Shown here: one piece after another, positions 44,063-52,806 of the stretch
Position numbering within the stretch: position 1 is the first letter of the stretch
How the letters are laid out: each line of letters opens with the position of its first letter
Assembly (NCBI RefSeq): GCF_019090165.1
Contig: NZ_JAHRIB010000179.1
Span: forward strand, 1 to 64,000
Origin: Streptomyces sp. BV286
GTDB taxonomy: Bacteria; Actinomycetota; Actinomycetes; Streptomycetales; Streptomycetaceae
Length of the DNA stretch: 64,000 nucleotides
Direction: 5' to 3'
Made by a program: the position numbers and the translations under genes
The notes under the pieces: model-generated
What the model was told of the DNA's origin: nothing
What the model saw: the letters and a program-made list of their open reading frames with translations, nothing else
Databases searched by the model: none

Positions 44063-44627
44063 CGAACTTCCAGGCGGCGGGGAGGACACCCATCGCCAGG
44101 GCGGCCTTGAGGGCGTCGCCGACGAGGAACGGGGTGAGGCCCGCCGCCACGGCCTGGGCCGCCGTCAGGTCGGCCGCGAAGGCCAGGTACGGGACGCCGA
44201 TCGCGTAGATGATCGCCTCGCCCAGCAGCATCGCGCCCGCCATGCGCACGACCGAGCGGTCGGCGCCGCGGCGGGCGAGGGCGCCCACGACGGTCGCGGC
44301 GAGCAGCATGCCGAGGATGTAGCCGAAGGACGCGGTGACGCCGGAGCTGCCTTCGGCGAACCACGGCAGTCCCGCGAGGCCGAGCAGCGCGTACAGGGCG
44401 AGGGAGGCCAGGCCGCGGCCGGCGCCGAGCGCGGTGCCCACGAGCAGGGCGGCGAAGGTCTGGCCGGTCACCGGCACCGGGGATCCCGGTACGGGCACCG
44501 CGAGCTGGGCGGCGAGGCCCACGAGCGCGGCGCCGCCCGCCACGAGGGCGACGTCCCTGACGCGGGAGGCGGGGAGGAGGTCGGCGAGGACCTGGCGCGG
44601 GTGGGCGGGGGCGACGGCGGTGGCCAT
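44046..44627 (-). CDS. bioY: Biotin transporter substrate-binding subunit BioY
   Basis: This 193-aa integral membrane protein has about six helices and the BioY signatures VPGSPVPVTGQTFAALLVG and LGEAIIYAIGVPYLA. BioY is the S-component of the biotin ECF transporter and can also work alone. ATG 44627 is chosen because CGGAGC lies about 7 bp upstream; a GTG at 44663 would add 12 residues. No BioM or BioN gene adjoins it. The last codons overlap, on the opposite strand, the oxidase remnant. Confidence 0.94.
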   Translation of the reverse strand: MATAVAPAHPRQVLADLLPASRVRDVALVAGGAALVGLAAQLAVPVPGSPVPVTGQTFAALLVGTALGAGRGLASLALYALLGLAGLPWFAEGSSGVTASFGYILGMLLAATVVGALARRGADRSVVRMAGAMLLGEAIIYAIGVPYLAFAADLTAAQAVAAGLTPFLVGDALKAALAMGVLPAAWKFVKRES

Positions 44628-44924
44628 GGGTGCTCCGGACAGGGGTGAAGGTGGCGGGGACACCTGACGCTATCCCAGAGGTTTCCGGCCGATCACCGTC
44701 AGCGGTCGACAAAGGCGGGAACCGGGAGTTGGTGCACCTTCGACAAAGAGTGCCGCGTACACCCGCGCGGGCGTGATGCTGGTCACTGAGGTGGAGTGGC
44801 TCTTCCTACCCGGTCCACCGCGAGCCGAGTGCGGGTCGACTGTGAGGTCCCGCCAAAGGGAATTCGCGAGGGCGAAACAATTCAGCCCTGGCCGGACACG
44901 CCCCCGCCCTCTACGCTTCAAGCC
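44628..44924. promoter_or_regulatory. Divergent promoter region of bioY and the sulfur operon
   Basis: This 297-bp gap contains no gene. It should hold both promoters. TACGCT at 44912-44917 is a weak -10 candidate whose start site would fall on, or next to, the leader-peptide ATG at 44925, so the leader message may be leaderless. No biotin-repressor palindrome was recognised. Confidence 0.4.
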
Positions 44925-45008
44925 ATGGTTGCCCAGGCTGAGAACTTCGCGTCGCGTCGCTATGTCGACCTGCGACGCCAAGGCACCGCCATCTGTCGTC
45001 GCCGCTGA
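44925..45008 (+). CDS. Putative cis-regulatory leader peptide of the sulfur operon
   Basis: This 27-aa frame encodes MVAQAENFASRRYVDLRRQG followed by TAICRRR. It fits the short peptides with the pattern SRR-[HY]-[VI]-DL-xR-x-x-A-x-CR that lie just upstream of sulfur and sulfonate uptake genes in Streptomyces and relatives. Its single Cys sits near the end, followed by Arg codons, as expected if ribosome stalling at low Cys-tRNA controls the operon. It begins 465 bp before the substrate-binding protein gene. No ribosome site precedes the ATG. The frame is too short for standard gene calling. Confidence 0.75.
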   Translation: MVAQAENFASRRYVDLRRQGTAICRRR

Positions 45009-45389
45009 GGCGAGCGGAGCGAATCCGGCTCGCCCGGCCGAGACGGACGTCCGACACGGACGTCGGACACGGACGTCAGACGTCGGACGTCGTGCCGACC
45101 GGTTTCCCCGATGCGGTCCTGGCCGTCGGGGGGGGGCTCGGTGGCCCGGACCTGCTGTCCGGGATCCGTTGGGCGCGTCGCCGGGCAGGCTCCGGGTCTG
45201 TTGCTGACGCGTTGACGCACTGACGTCCGTCGGCGTCCCTCTCTGTCATCTCCTGCCACGCCCCGCGCGTGTGCCTTCTCCTGCGCGTTTCTCACCTTCC
45301 CGGCTCCGCCCTGCCGGGTTCTTCGCGCACCTTCCTGCCCTCCGTGGCACGGCCTCGTGCACCACCTCATGAATTCAGGGAGCCCTCCC
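45009..45389 (+). promoter_or_regulatory. Leader region with 13-bp repeats and hairpins
   Basis: This 381-bp stretch between the leader peptide and the first ABC gene has GGACGTC at 45045, 45058, 45071 and 45085, the first three exactly 13 bp apart (units GGACGTCCGACAC, GGACGTCGGACAC). GACGTCC-GACAC-GGACGTC can form a hairpin. A second stem CCCGGAC/GTCCGGG (45145-45163) follows a run of nine G (45128-45136). These could be alternative structures of an attenuator controlled by the leader peptide. No protein gene is seen. Confidence 0.55.
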
Positions 45390-46457
45390 ATGTCATCTCT
45401 GTCCGCGTCCGGAATCGACCGGCGGCTCTTCCTCTCCTCCGTGCTCGGCGCCGCCGCCACGGCCGGGCTCAGCGGCTGCGCGGGCAGCAGCGCCGCCGAC
45501 ACCGGGGCCGGCGGGTCGACGTCCGCCCCGCTGGCGGCCAAGGTCCCGTCGGGTACGAGCCTCAAGATCTCCTCGTTCCAGGGCGTCCAGCAGCTGCAGC
45601 TCAAGCTCGCGGGCCTGTCCGACCTGCCGTTCAAGGTCTCCTCCTGGGCGAACATCGGCGCCGGGCCCGACGTCATCAACGCCTTCCGCTCCAAGTCCCT
45701 GGACGTCGCCAACAACGCGGGCATCCCGCCCATCCAGGCGCACTACCAGGGCTTCGACGCGAAGATCGTCGCGATCAACGTCACCCGCAAGCCCAACTAC
45801 CTCTTCGCCACCAAACCCGGCAGCGACATCCGCACCGTCCAGGACTTCAAGGGCAGGAAGCTGGCCTTCTCGCAGGGCCAGGCCCAGGGTGTCGTGCTGC
45901 TGCGGGCCCTCAAGCAGGCCGGACTGAAGTACGACGACGTGCAGTTGGTGCCGTTGACCAGCAACCAGTTCCTCACCGCGCTCCAGGCGGGCCAGGTGGA
46001 CATCGCCCCGCTCGCCAACCAGCAGTCACCGGCCTACCTCAAGCAGTACGGGTCCAGGGGCGCCCGCACCATCCCCACCGACGTCGTGGACCTGCTCAAC
46101 CTGCTGTGGGCGCCCGTCTCCGTGCTGGCCGACAAGGCCAAGGCGGCCGCGGTCGCCGCGTACATCCCGCGCTGGGCCAAGGGCCAGGTGTGGGCGTACG
46201 AGCATCCCGACGACTGGAACGAGGAGTTCTACGTCAAGACGCAGAACCTGACGCTCGCCCAGGCCGAGTCGATCACCGAGCTCGCCAACAAGCCGCTGTT
46301 CCCGCCGAGCTGGGACGAGGCCGTGAAGTGGGAGCAGGAGACCGCGGACCTGCTGGCCGACGGCGGCTTCGTGAAGGCGTTCAAGGTCGACTCGCTCTTC
46401 GACCGGCGCTTCGAGGGCATCGCGGCGAAGGCCGTCACGGCGGAGTACCGGAGGTGA
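45390..46457 (+). CDS. ABC transporter substrate-binding lipoprotein, sulfonate/nitrate type
   Basis: This 355-aa protein has a signal with twin Arg (DRRLFLSSVLG) and lipobox LSGC, so Cys30 or so would be lipid-modified after export. The mature part is an SsuA/NrtT-like binding protein (FKVSSWANIGAGPDVINAFRSKSLDVANNAG, LFATKPGSDIRTVQDFKGRKLAFSQGQ). ATG 45390 is used; an in-frame ATG at 45357 would only extend ahead of the signal. It is the first structural gene of the operon and is followed by its permease with overlapping signals. Ligand is likely an alkylsulfonate or sulfate ester, judged from the two oxygenases downstream. Confidence 0.93.
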   Translation: MSSLSASGIDRRLFLSSVLGAAATAGLSGCAGSSAADTGAGGSTSAPLAAKVPSGTSLKISSFQGVQQLQLKLAGLSDLPFKVSSWANIGAGPDVINAFRSKSLDVANNAGIPPIQAHYQGFDAKIVAINVTRKPNYLFATKPGSDIRTVQDFKGRKLAFSQGQAQGVVLLRALKQAGLKYDDVQLVPLTSNQFLTALQAGQVDIAPLANQQSPAYLKQYGSRGARTIPTDVVDLLNLLWAPVSVLADKAKAAAVAAYIPRWAKGQVWAYEHPDDWNEEFYVKTQNLTLAQAESITELANKPLFPPSWDEAVKWEQETADLLADGGFVKAFKVDSLFDRRFEGIAAKAVTAEYRR

Positions 46458-46462
46458 GCGCC

Positions 46463-47305
46463 GTGACCACGAGCACCACGACCGCGCCCGTCGTCACCGA
46501 CGCAGTGGCCGTGCCGAAGGCGCGCCGCCGCCGCGCTCTCTCCCCCGGCAAGCCCCTGCCCGCCGCCCGGCTCATCGGCCCGGTCCTCCTCCTCGCCCTG
46601 TGGGCGGGGGCCTCGGCCGCCGGTCAGCTGGATCCGGGCGCGATCCCGGCGCCCTGGACGGTGCTGGAAACCGGCGTCCAACTGTGGACCGACGGCACGC
46701 TGCTGGGCGACATCCTGACCTCGCTGCAGCGGGCCGGTGCCGGGTTCGCGATCGGTCTGACCGCCGGGGTGGTGCTCGCGCTGGCCTCCGGGCTCACCCG
46801 GACCGGGGAGGCGCTGATCGACGGGACGGTGAACCTCAACAGGGCGATCCCCACCCTCGGTCTGATCCCGCTGTTCATCCTCTGGCTGGGCATCGGCGAG
46901 ACCTTCAAGATCGCGATCATCGCCATCGTCGTCTACATCCCGATCTATCTGAACCTGCACTCCGCGCTGTCCGGCATCGACCACCGGTACGTCGAACTCG
47001 CCGAGGTCCAGGGGCTGTCCAAGTGGGCCTTCGTCCGGCAGGTCGTCATACCCGGCGCCCTGCCCGGCTTCTTCGTCGGCCTGCGGCTCGGGGTGACCGG
47101 CTCCTGGCTCGGCCTGGTCGTGCTGGAGCAGATAAACGCCACCAGCGGGCTCGGTTACATGATGTTCCAGGCCCAGAACTACGGCCAGACGGACGTCATC
47201 CTCGTCGGCCTGGTCGTCTACGGCATCTTCGGACTCGCCTCCGACAGCACGGTCCGCCTCATCGAACGGAGGGTGCTGTCATGGCGACGCACGCTGAGCA
47301 GCTGA
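46463..47305 (+). CDS. ABC transporter permease, sulfonate type
   Basis: This 280-aa inner-membrane permease has about six helices and the cytoplasmic EAA loop VELAEVQGLSKWAFVRQVVIPGALPGFFVGL. GTG 46463 is chosen because GGAGGTGAG lies 8 nt upstream, inside the end of the preceding gene; a GTG at 46454 overlaps that ribosome site. The family (SsuC/TauC) imports aliphatic sulfonates, taurine or nitrate. The last 25 bp overlap the ATPase gene. Confidence 0.94.
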   Translation: MTTSTTTAPVVTDAVAVPKARRRRALSPGKPLPAARLIGPVLLLALWAGASAAGQLDPGAIPAPWTVLETGVQLWTDGTLLGDILTSLQRAGAGFAIGLTAGVVLALASGLTRTGEALIDGTVNLNRAIPTLGLIPLFILWLGIGETFKIAIIAIVVYIPIYLNLHSALSGIDHRYVELAEVQGLSKWAFVRQVVIPGALPGFFVGLRLGVTGSWLGLVVLEQINATSGLGYMMFQAQNYGQTDVILVGLVVYGIFGLASDSTVRLIERRVLSWRRTLSS

Positions 47306-48015
47306 CCCGGCCCACGGTCCAACTCCGGGGTCTCACCAGGTCGTTCGACGACCGGACGGTCCTCGACGGCATCGATCTGGACCTCCCGCCCGGCCAGTTC
47401 ACGGCCCTGCTCGGACACAGCGGGTCCGGCAAGAGCACCCTGTTGCGGGCCATCGCCGGCCTCGACCACGAGGTGACCGGAAGTGGCCGGCTCACCGCTC
47501 CCGAACGGGTGTCCGTGGTGTTCCAGGACTCCCGCCTGCTGCCCTGGCGCCGGGTCCTGGACAACGTGCTGCTGGGTCTCGACGGCGAGGACGCCGACCG
47601 CAGGGGCCGTGAGGCTCTCGACGAGGTGGGACTGAAGGGACGCGAGCGGGCCTGGCCCAACGAGCTGTCCGGCGGCGAGGCCCAGCGCGCCGCACTGGCC
47701 CGCTCCCTCGTCCGCGAGCCCGAACTCCTGCTGGCCGACGAGCCGTTCGGCGCACTGGACGCACTCACCCGCATCAAGATGCACGCCCTGCTGCGCGAGC
47801 TGTGGAAGCGCCACCGGCCGTCCGTCCTGCTCGTCACCCACGACGTGGACGAGGCGATCGTGCTCGCCGACCGCGTGCTCGTGCTCGACCGGGGCCGCGT
47901 CGGCCTCGACCTGACCATCGACCGCCCGCACCCGCGCTCGTACCGCGACCCGCTGCTGGGCGAATACCGGGAGCGGCTGCTGTCCGCGCTCGGCGTGACG
48001 GAGGACCACCAGTGA
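47281..48015 (+). CDS. ABC transporter ATP-binding protein, SsuB type
   Basis: This 244-aa ATPase has Walker A GHSGSGKST, Q-loop FQDSRLLPW, signature LSGGEAQR, Walker B LLLADEPFGALD and switch His in VTHDVDEA. It energises the permease encoded just upstream, with which it overlaps by 25 bp; its stop TGA overlaps the GTG of the next gene. The FQDSRLLPWRRVLDN motif is typical of the SsuB/TauB/NrtD group. Confidence 0.95.
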   Translation: MATHAEQLTRPTVQLRGLTRSFDDRTVLDGIDLDLPPGQFTALLGHSGSGKSTLLRAIAGLDHEVTGSGRLTAPERVSVVFQDSRLLPWRRVLDNVLLGLDGEDADRRGREALDEVGLKGRERAWPNELSGGEAQRAALARSLVREPELLLADEPFGALDALTRIKMHALLRELWKRHRPSVLLVTHDVDEAIVLADRVLVLDRGRVGLDLTIDRPHPRSYRDPLLGEYRERLLSALGVTEDHQ

Positions 48016-49355
48016 CATCGAGACAGCTCCACCTGAACGCGTTCCTGATGAACACCGGCCACCACGAGGCGTCGTGGCGGCTCCCGGAGAGCGACCCGTA
48101 CGCCCACGTGGAGCTCGGCCACTACGTCCACCTGGCCCGGATCGCCGAACGCGGCACCTTCGACTCGCTCTTCCTCGCCGACGGACCGCAGCTGTGGGGC
48201 AACATCGCCCAACGGCCGGCCGGCACCCTGGAGCCCCTCACCCTGCTCACCGCGCTGGCGACGGCAACCGAGCACATCGGCCTGATCGCCACCGCCTCCA
48301 CCTCGTACAACTCGCCCTACAACCTGGCCCGCAGGTTCGCCTCCCTGGACATCGTCAGCGGTGGCCGGGCCGGCTGGAACATCGTCACCACGGCGGGCGC
48401 CGAGGCCGCCCGCAACTTCGGGCTCGACGCGGAGCCCGCGCACGCCGAGCGGTACGCCCGTGCCGCCGAGTTCCTCGACGTGGCGCTCAAGCTGTGGGAC
48501 AGCTGGGAGGACGACGCGATCGTCGCCGACAAGGCGGCCGGTGTCTGGGGCGACGACACGAAGATCCATCCGCCCCGGCACAGTGGGAAGTACTTCAGCG
48601 TCGAGGGCGCCCTCAACGTCCCGCGCAGTCCGCAGGGTTACCCGCTGCTGGTCCAGGCCGGCTCCTCCGAGGACGGCAAGGCGTTCGCGGCCCGGTACGC
48701 GGAGGCGGTGTTCACCGCCCAGCAGACCCTGAAGGACGCCCAGGACTTCTACACCGACCTCAAGTCCCGTACGGCGGCGGTCGGCCGGGACCCCGACCAC
48801 ATCAAGGTGCTGCCCGGCATCGTCCCGGTGATCGGCTCGACGGAGGCGGAGGCGCGGGCACTCGAACAGGTCCTGGAGGACCACATCGTGTACACGCACG
48901 GTGTGGGCCGCCTGGAGAGCCTGCTTCAACTGCCTGCGGGGACACTGGAGTTGGATGCCCGGCTTCCCGCCGACCTGCCGCCGGAAAGCTCCATCGAGGG
49001 TGCCAAGAGCCGCTACACGCTCGTCGTGGAACTGGCCCGGCGCGAACGCCTCACCGTGCGGCAGCTGATCGGCCGGCTCGGTGGCGGACGCGGGCACCTG
49101 ACCTTCGCCGGGACGCCCGAGCAGGTCGCCGACGCCATCGAGGAGTGGTTCACGCTCGGCGCCGCCGACGGATTCAACATCATGCCCGCGGTCCTGCCGT
49201 CCGGCCTCGACGCCTTCGTCGACCACGTCGTCCCGATCCTGCGCACCCGAGGACTGCTCCGCGAGGAGTACGGCCCGCGCCGGACCCTGCGCGAACGGTA
49301 CGGGCTCCCGCGCCCCGCCAACCAGCACGTCTCCCCGGCACTCGCCCGAGTCTGA
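48012..49355 (+). CDS. LLM-class flavin-dependent monooxygenase (NtaA/SnaA/DszA type)
   Basis: This 447-aa enzyme begins at a GTG overlapping the previous stop (GTGA). The family core ADGPQLWGNIAQRP...LEPLTLLTALATATEHIGLIATASTSYNSPYNLAR and SGGRAGWNIVTTAG are those of the longer FMNH2-dependent NtaA/DszA/DmoA branch, not of the 380-aa SsuD. These enzymes use reduced FMN from a separate reductase to cleave C-S or C-N bonds in sulfur compounds or chelators. Co-transcription with the transporter suggests it releases sulfite from an imported organosulfur compound. No flavin reductase gene is in the cluster. Confidence 0.92.
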   Translation: MTSRQLHLNAFLMNTGHHEASWRLPESDPYAHVELGHYVHLARIAERGTFDSLFLADGPQLWGNIAQRPAGTLEPLTLLTALATATEHIGLIATASTSYNSPYNLARRFASLDIVSGGRAGWNIVTTAGAEAARNFGLDAEPAHAERYARAAEFLDVALKLWDSWEDDAIVADKAAGVWGDDTKIHPPRHSGKYFSVEGALNVPRSPQGYPLLVQAGSSEDGKAFAARYAEAVFTAQQTLKDAQDFYTDLKSRTAAVGRDPDHIKVLPGIVPVIGSTEAEARALEQVLEDHIVYTHGVGRLESLLQLPAGTLELDARLPADLPPESSIEGAKSRYTLVVELARRERLTVRQLIGRLGGGRGHLTFAGTPEQVADAIEEWFTLGAADGFNIMPAVLPSGLDAFVDHVVPILRTRGLLREEYGPRRTLRERYGLPRPANQHVSPALARV

Positions 49356-49376: not shown

Positions 49377-50270
49377 ATGTCCGACCTCGAGATCCACAAG
49401 GTCACCGCACGGATCGGCGCCCGGATATCCGGCGTCGACATCGCCGAGCCGCTCGACGAGGAGACGGTCACCGCCCTGCGGGCCGCCCTCAACGACCACA
49501 AGGCACTGGTCTTCGACAACGTCGGTTTGGACGACGAGGGCCAGCAGGCCTTCGCCCGGCACTTCGGCGACCTCACCACCGCCCACCCGACCGTGCCCGC
49601 CGTGGACGGCGCCCCGAACGTGCTGCCCGTCGACAGCGAGCGCGGCCGGGCCGCCAACAACTGGCACACCGACGTCACGTTCGTCCTCAACCCCCCGCAG
49701 GCCAGCACCCTGCGCAGCATCACGGTCCCGCCGTACGGCGGCGAGACACTGATCGCCAGCTCCGCCGCCGCCTACCGCAATCTGCCCGAGCCCCTCCGCC
49801 GGCTCGCGGACACCCTGTGGGCCGAGCACACCAACGACTACGACTACGCGGTGCCCGAGGAGGAGATCGACGAGGCACAGGCCGCCCAGCGCGCCCAGTT
49901 CACCTCCATCAAGTACCGCACCGCCCACCCCGTGGTCCGGGTCCACCCGCTGACCGGCGAGCGTGGGCTGTTCATCGGCGGCTTCGCCCAGCGGATCGTC
50001 GGCCTGTCCGTGAACGAGTCCCGCAAGGTCCTCGATCTGCTCCAGGCCTACGTCACCCGGCCCGAGAACGTCCTGCGTCACCGCTGGTCGCCGAACCAGC
50101 TCGTGCTGTTCGACAACCGGATCACCCAGCACTACGCCATCGACAACTACGACGGCCTGCCGCGCCGCCTGAACCGGGTGACGGTCGCCGGTGACGTGCC
50201 GGTCGGCATCGAAGGGAAGGAGAGCTACTCGATCTCGGGCGACGCCTCGCACTACACCCCGGTGGCGTAG
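49377..50270 (+). CDS. TauD/TfdA family Fe(II)/2-oxoglutarate dioxygenase (alkylsulfatase/taurine type)
   Basis: This 297-aa oxygenase has the iron triad His97-x-Asp99 (WHTDVTF) and His252 (QHYAIDNYDG) and the 2-oxoglutarate Arg near RRLNRVTVAGD. The GRAANNWHTDVTF and GLFIGGFAQRIVGLS stretches resemble the AtsK/TauD group, which oxidises sulfonates or sulfate esters to free sulfite or sulfate. It is the last gene of the sulfur operon, 21 bp after the monooxygenase, with AAAGGA as ribosome site. Having both oxygenase types broadens the range of sulfur sources. Confidence 0.93.
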   Translation: MSDLEIHKVTARIGARISGVDIAEPLDEETVTALRAALNDHKALVFDNVGLDDEGQQAFARHFGDLTTAHPTVPAVDGAPNVLPVDSERGRAANNWHTDVTFVLNPPQASTLRSITVPPYGGETLIASSAAAYRNLPEPLRRLADTLWAEHTNDYDYAVPEEEIDEAQAAQRAQFTSIKYRTAHPVVRVHPLTGERGLFIGGFAQRIVGLSVNESRKVLDLLQAYVTRPENVLRHRWSPNQLVLFDNRITQHYAIDNYDGLPRRLNRVTVAGDVPVGIEGKESYSISGDASHYTPVA

Positions 50271-52671: not shown

Positions 52672-52739
52672 GGGCACCCGAAGCGCCCTGCCTCGTGATC
52701 GTCTTCTCACCTTTCACGCGGGCAGGCGGATGAAAGGAG

Positions 52740-52770
52740 GACCCCCGCGAGGACGTGACTCGCGGGGGTC
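52740..52770 (+). terminator. sodF terminator
   Basis: A perfect 12-bp stem (52740-52751 with 52759-52770) with a 7-nt loop, followed by TT, 68 bp after the sodF stop. Confidence 0.9.
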
Positions 52771-52806
52771 TTCCGGTATCGGGGATTCCGGGGGCATGGT
52801 TGCGCG

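Follow-up and report, generated by a model that had tools for sequence, protein, structure and literature searches.

A conserved leader peptide with an invariant cysteine codon upstream of a sulfonate operon in Streptomyces

The leader locus and its conservation

The stretch of DNA analysed here (the window) comprises 64 kb of a 9.4 Mb draft Streptomyces genome. On its plus strand it carries a short open reading frame of 27 codons and a stop (44925-45008), identified by reading of the sequence, homology, a profile and codon analysis, which begins with ATG at 44925, ends with the stop codon at 45006-45008 and encodes the peptide MVAQAENFASRRYVDLRRQGTAICRRR. An earlier note on this DNA had placed a 27-residue leader peptide at exactly this position, ahead of an SsuABC-type operon with two oxygenases, and both are found there. 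By homology, the genes that follow on the same strand encode an SsuA-like sulfonate binding protein (45390-46457; its homologue L009 matches SsuA_fam), an SsuC-like permease (46460-47305), an SsuB-like ATPase (47290-48015), a luciferase-type monooxygenase (48000-49355) and a TauD-type dioxygenase (49377-50270). In an Rfam scan of the window, the leader locus matched neither riboswitch nor attenuator families; elsewhere, with 92 bits, positions 52683-52774 match the Rfam sodF sRNA directly after a superoxide-dismutase-like gene.

The reading frame is conserved among relatives of the locus, nearly all of which are Streptomyces. A peptide profile (E <= 1e-6) detects a leader of the window type in 80 of 296 Streptomyces genomes, and the 80 named relative contigs that we compared include one from Actinacidiphila. 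When 611 bp of DNA around the leader were used as a query, the matches in relatives were concentrated on the -10 box and the reading frame. Among 100 distinct orthologous leaders, residues Q4, R11, R12, V14, D15, L16, R17, R18 and C24 are invariant, the mean entropy at the three codon positions is 0.40, 0.15 and 0.39, and the ratio of synonymous to nonsynonymous change peaks in the leader frame (1.03 vs 0.61 and 0.05 in the other frames). A match to R-x(1,2)-[VI]DL-x-R-x5-C is found a single time in the six frames of the 64 kb, where a second-order Markov sequence would be expected to contain 0.017 occurrences. This comparison of sequences shows the 27-codon leader to be real and conserved in Streptomyces, far beyond chance.

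The start of the leader lies close behind a promoter-like sequence. A -10 box, TACGCT (44912-44917, plus strand), is located 7 nt before the ATG, and the corresponding TANNNT box is found 6-7 nt ahead of the start codon at 147 of 153 leader loci. A -35-like element read from the sequence, CTGGCC (44888-44893, plus strand), precedes the -10 box by 18 nt; in relatives the site reads CTGGGC, CTGGTC or CTGGCC. The 45 bp upstream of the orthologous leaders L052-L131 fall into two promoter types, CTGGGCAG...TTTGCTAGCTTCG and CTGG(C/T)CGGA...CCTACCCTTC, with the window belonging to the second. Because the -10 box is only 6-7 nt from the start codon, the message is probably leaderless, starting at or next to 44925. 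An alternative in-frame start upstream (GTG at 44796, giving 70 aa) was rejected, since relatives conserve the ATG corresponding to 44925 with the -10 box adjoining it.

Deletion of a ROK regulator in the window strain

In all 80 named relative contigs the gene right behind the leader encodes a ROK-family regulator of about 400 aa, and the same holds for 62 of 72 further loci. Nearly all relatives then continue with genes for the substrate-binding protein (SBP), ssuC, ssuB, the luciferase-type monooxygenase and TauD. Compared with these relatives the window is missing about 1.1 kb at 45066-45081, and what follows (45081-45207, plus strand) is the decayed 3' remnant of a ROK-family regulator gene, 77-83% identical in DNA sequence to the 3' ends of the relatives' ROK genes and frameshifted near a run of nine G. 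Comparison with the relatives thus indicates that the ROK gene between the leader and ssu has been deleted in the window strain, although the apparent deletion may be an assembly error in the draft contig. We rejected the possibility that the gene has moved elsewhere in the genome, where the best relative is 31% identical. The earlier note had proposed that the leader controls the sulfur operon, and ssu does follow it here; however, the next gene in relatives is ROK, which makes direct control of ssu a derived arrangement of this strain.

The loss of ROK appears to have occurred twice. In G013, G134 and G250 (leaders L166, L168 and L192) the leader is kept directly before ssuA without a ROK gene, and L192 retains an apparent ROK start, which suggests a probably separate loss. 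As judged from these alignments, both losses apparently left the leader and its TGT cysteine codon in place, and this argues that the leader also serves ssu. At L144 (G125), the match to ROK after the leader covers only its first 75 residues and ssu genes were not seen; this locus may have undergone a further rearrangement.

The universal position of ROK behind the named relatives' leaders, together with its frameshifted remnant in the window, would also suit a leader that controlled ROK only and has been without a function since the deletion, with ssu transcribed from a promoter of its own. We consider such a relic quite improbable, given that the window leader retains its motif, its TGT codon and its -10 box, that the second clade lacking ROK likewise retains the leader, and that a search for sigma-70-type promoters between the leader and ssuA found none.

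A family of sulfur-linked leader peptides

The window leader matches the NCBIfam model NF042934 ("putative leader peptide", cis_reg_atten) with 20 bits (E 3.7e-4), under the cut-off of 27 bits; two of its orthologues reach 21.9 and 26.8 bits. It shares with NF042934 the short core R..VDL.R that ends in a control Cys 8 residues past the Leu, and in the window as in relatives the ssu sulfur operon lies downstream; the ROK/ssu sub-type differs in having a QG(T/A)A variant and a YVDLRR core. From this shared core and context we conclude that the window leader belongs to an already-known actinobacterial kind of Cys leader peptide, even though it scores below the model's cut-off. Because the sub-type falls under that cut-off, automated annotation can miss it, and the remark in the earlier note that the leader is invisible to standard gene finding was fair.

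The genome that contains the window has eight other places above the NF042934 cut-off. In this genome, family leaders are followed by a NirA/sulfite-reductase-type gene with cysH, a gene for the dimethylsulfone monooxygenase SfnG, a SorA/SoxC-like sulfite dehydrogenase gene and ssuC-ssuB; by sequence reading only, others stand before genes for a rhodanese-type sulfurtransferase and for products that resemble cysteine synthase, a monooxygenase and cysteine dioxygenase. Scanning the same genome for a DNA pattern gave no matches, the motif used being too rigid. The best NF042934 match of the genome, L306 (G000:C118:7094-7150, minus strand; RLWRRVHMDLVRYAGCVCRPSC), has TGC at its inner Cys and TGT at its control Cys, and stands before a reading frame that resembles cysteine dioxygenase. 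At L313 (G000:C124:72583-72633, minus strand), a family-like reading frame, LTSRRHIDLLRVCSAASPPR, has Ser in place of the control Cys and may be a decayed leader or a variant.

A search across the class found family matches in 117 of 148 genomes and in 63 of 81 genera. Among the products encoded behind 46 sampled leaders are rhodaneses (9), sulfite reductases (7), dicarboxylate-type symporters (6), PAPS reductases (2), ROK regulators (3), sulfate/sulfonate binding proteins and one cysteine-synthase-type enzyme. Family leaders precede ROK regulators in other genera at L232, L250 and L272, so that leader and ROK may recur as a pair. The sulfur-linked pattern that the earlier note had recognized is thus borne out, leaders of the same kind preceding sulfur genes across this genome and across the class, and comparison with leaders of other operons, of the kind for which it had called, reveals a core motif, spacing and control Cys common to the family. 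On these comparative grounds the family members are probable cysteine-sensing leader peptides.

Leaders with similar properties have been described in mycobacteria. The Cys-rich leaders of Mycobacterium smegmatis (Ms4527A and Ms5788A) are leaderless short reading frames before sulfur genes, and Canestrari et al. 2020 reportedly tested leaders of this type. A leaderless start of the window leader would fit the geometry of its -10 box. As described in papers that cite this work, these leaders respond to cysteine and have several Cys codons near the stop, compared with one in the window leader. Several family leaders match the corresponding NCBIfam models, NF042936 (Ms4527A) and NF042933 (Ms5788A), which are the closest named ones, at scores below their cut-offs; paralogues in the window's own genome are among them (best 43.6 bits vs 45), and the window leader itself matches neither. 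The leaders that Seliverstov et al. 2005 described at mycobacterial cys operons, in a study in which Streptomyces is not reported (PMC1262725), contain runs of Cys codons near the stop, unlike the window leader with its single Cys. In Rhodobacterales, the uORFC-8-2 motif before cysS contains an upstream reading frame with conserved Cys codons for which Cys attenuation has been proposed, but it differs from the window leader in its tandem Cys codons, mostly UGC, and its intrinsic terminator (PMC8632094). In the literature that we searched, which included few subscription journals, we found publications on mycobacterial and other leaders and none on these Streptomyces leaders, and a survey of S. 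lividans has no cysteine leader among its entries.

An invariant TGT at the control cysteine

The control Cys of the window leader is codon 24, a TGT at 44994-44996 (plus strand). Counts over orthologues and the wider family show that this codon is TGT in 100 of 100 distinct orthologues and in 90 of 90 further family loci, which include 59 from genera other than Streptomyces; 69 of the 90 were scored by script and 21 by reading the matched interval, with agreement between the two. TGT is the rarer Cys codon, 83% of the Cys codons in the window's likely genes being TGC (n = 113), and the other Cys codons within the 69 family reading frames are 36 TGC to 4 TGT (90% TGC; Fisher p = 1e-24, which is only indicative because the loci are related). 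The other conserved residues of the family use synonymous codons freely. Simple descent is therefore an unlikely cause of the invariance, because TGT is maintained across many genera while all other codons have drifted.

At every one of the 90 family loci, the control Cys follows the Leu of VDL (or its variant) at a distance of exactly 8 residues. The RRxVDLxR motif precedes the codon with constant spacing, which suggests that the nascent chain takes part. The simplest guess for why TGT is used, and never TGC, is that the Cys tRNA reads the wobble position more slowly. The family may represent a nascent-chain-assisted and codon-specific arrest, with RRxVDLxR at a set distance in the exit tunnel and UGU, never UGC, in the A site, a proposal that we regard as possible yet rather doubtful.

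In the ROK/ssu sub-type, some codons other than that of the control Cys are also constrained. An inverted repeat within the reading frame, GCGTCGC (44954-44960) and GCGACGC (44972-44978), spans 44954-44978 on the plus strand and occupies codons 10-12 and 16-18. All seven of its pairs can form in 89 of 100 distinct orthologues, compared with 6.6% expected from background codon use, and it shows almost no covariation. The rare Arg codons CGT11 (44955-44957; 99 of 100 orthologues) and CGA17 (44973-44975; 86 of 100) supply the T-A pair of this 7-bp repeat, as one would expect if the repeat acted as nucleic acid, being either an operator or a hairpin in the RNA, with the peptide as a by-product. 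In the wider family, however, the same residues are written with many synonymous codons while the peptide motif is kept along with its spacing and the TGT, and the paralogues that we folded lack such a repeat, all of which makes a nucleic-acid element a very improbable explanation. The repeat as the main conserved element was rejected as well, being absent as a feature of the wider family.

RNA structure and proposed mechanism

The earlier note had seen in the late Cys codon a sign of Cys-responsive attenuation. The Cys is conserved and comparison supports a cysteine-responsive role, but the classical form of attenuation finds no support: a search of the plus strand at 44600-45420 found no intrinsic terminator, and an RNAalifold consensus over the relatives yielded no pairs in the spacer, almost no covariation and no covarying alternative hairpin. 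T5 runs occur downstream of only 2 of 60 family leaders. We accordingly rejected a classical trp-type attenuator, which would need a GC-rich terminator hairpin with a U tract and a competing antiterminator. What does follow the leader stop directly is a stem-loop, GGCGAGC...GCTCGCC, without a U tract (45009-45034, plus strand); the segment 45009-45066 folds with -31.5 kcal/mol (z -2.6), and with a hairpin of this stability the read-out may be based on structure.

Such a read-out could take the form of translational attenuation, in which the spacer RNA hides a ribosome-binding site that a ribosome stalled at the Cys would open, with ROK as the gene read out. Relatives have a short spacer, the ROK start lying mostly 63-86 nt after the leader stop, the spacers between leader and gene are more stable than shuffled sequences (mean z -1.3, n = 132), and a mycobacterial precedent has been reported. 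The window, however, has lost the ROK start, with ssuA lying about 380 nt from the leader, and the alignment contains no covarying spacer structure; we hold this explanation to be unlikely. Because some 380 nt separate the leader from ssuA, translational coupling is unlikely here and a transcriptional read-out is favoured.

The untranslated stretch at 45201-45389 (plus strand) is by composition C-rich and G-poor, as it is in relatives, and is a candidate Rho loading region between the leader and the first gene. C minus G is 0.20-0.22 before ssuA (0.22 at 45230-45379), within the top 0.35% of the strand's 150-nt windows, and after family leader stops the excess of C over G averages 0.155 over 150 nt, compared with 0.03 (sd 0.09) ahead of 185 control genes. 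For mycobacterial cys-operon leaders, which lack an obvious terminator, Rho-dependent termination was proposed by Seliverstov et al. 2005, and the excess of C over G before ssuA fits Rho loading as suggested there (PMC1262725). In relatives with ROK the excess sets in only some 60 nt past the leader, within the ROK gene, which weakens a uniform Rho model.

Our preferred reading, which we consider fairly probable, is that stalling of a cysteine-limited ribosome at UGU24 relieves attenuation of ssu. In the mechanism that we infer, with its leaderless start, stalling, cysteine as the signal, help from the nascent chain and a Rho step, a leaderless mRNA from at or next to 44925 would be translated at once into the 27-residue leader. 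When cysteinyl-tRNA is scarce, the ribosome would pause once UGU codon 24 occupies the A site, and the nascent RRYVDLRR, which would lie 6-13 residues behind UGU24 in the exit tunnel, may assist the pause. The pause would relieve attenuation downstream and thereby allow synthesis of the sulfonate transporter and oxygenases under cysteine shortage. In relatives the message would carry the ROK regulator and then ssu, while in the window the leader would have to exert its effect on ssu over about 380 untranslated nt.

Without a pause, transcription would most likely be ended by Rho within the C-rich stretch ahead of ssuA, a step that we advance tentatively, at somewhat less than even confidence. 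In E. coli tnaC, a ribosome stalled on the leader prevents Rho-dependent termination, and we propose the same for the window leader; the two differ in that tnaC senses free tryptophan via the nascent peptide, whereas the signal here would be cysteinyl-tRNA. Against the stalling model stand the single Cys codon, the stable hairpin after the stop and the compositional nature of the C-rich argument.

Implications

The analysis links the hidden 27-codon gene with other probable cysteine leaders of a single Streptomyces genome, which together resemble a regulon; if the stalling model is true, these would give sulfur control in Streptomyces a common logic. The invariance of the codon is the interesting part of the leader find and is worth an experiment. 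Together with the fixed spacing, the invariant TGT raises the question whether codon identity and peptide sequence, beyond Cys content, set stalling; an absolute dependence on UGU at just one position would be unusual among leader peptides. Should the codon-specific arrest be true, many unlinked sulfur operons would answer cysteinyl-tRNA via one wobble-decoded codon, and the ROK regulator at loci of the window type would be under the same cysteinyl-tRNA response.
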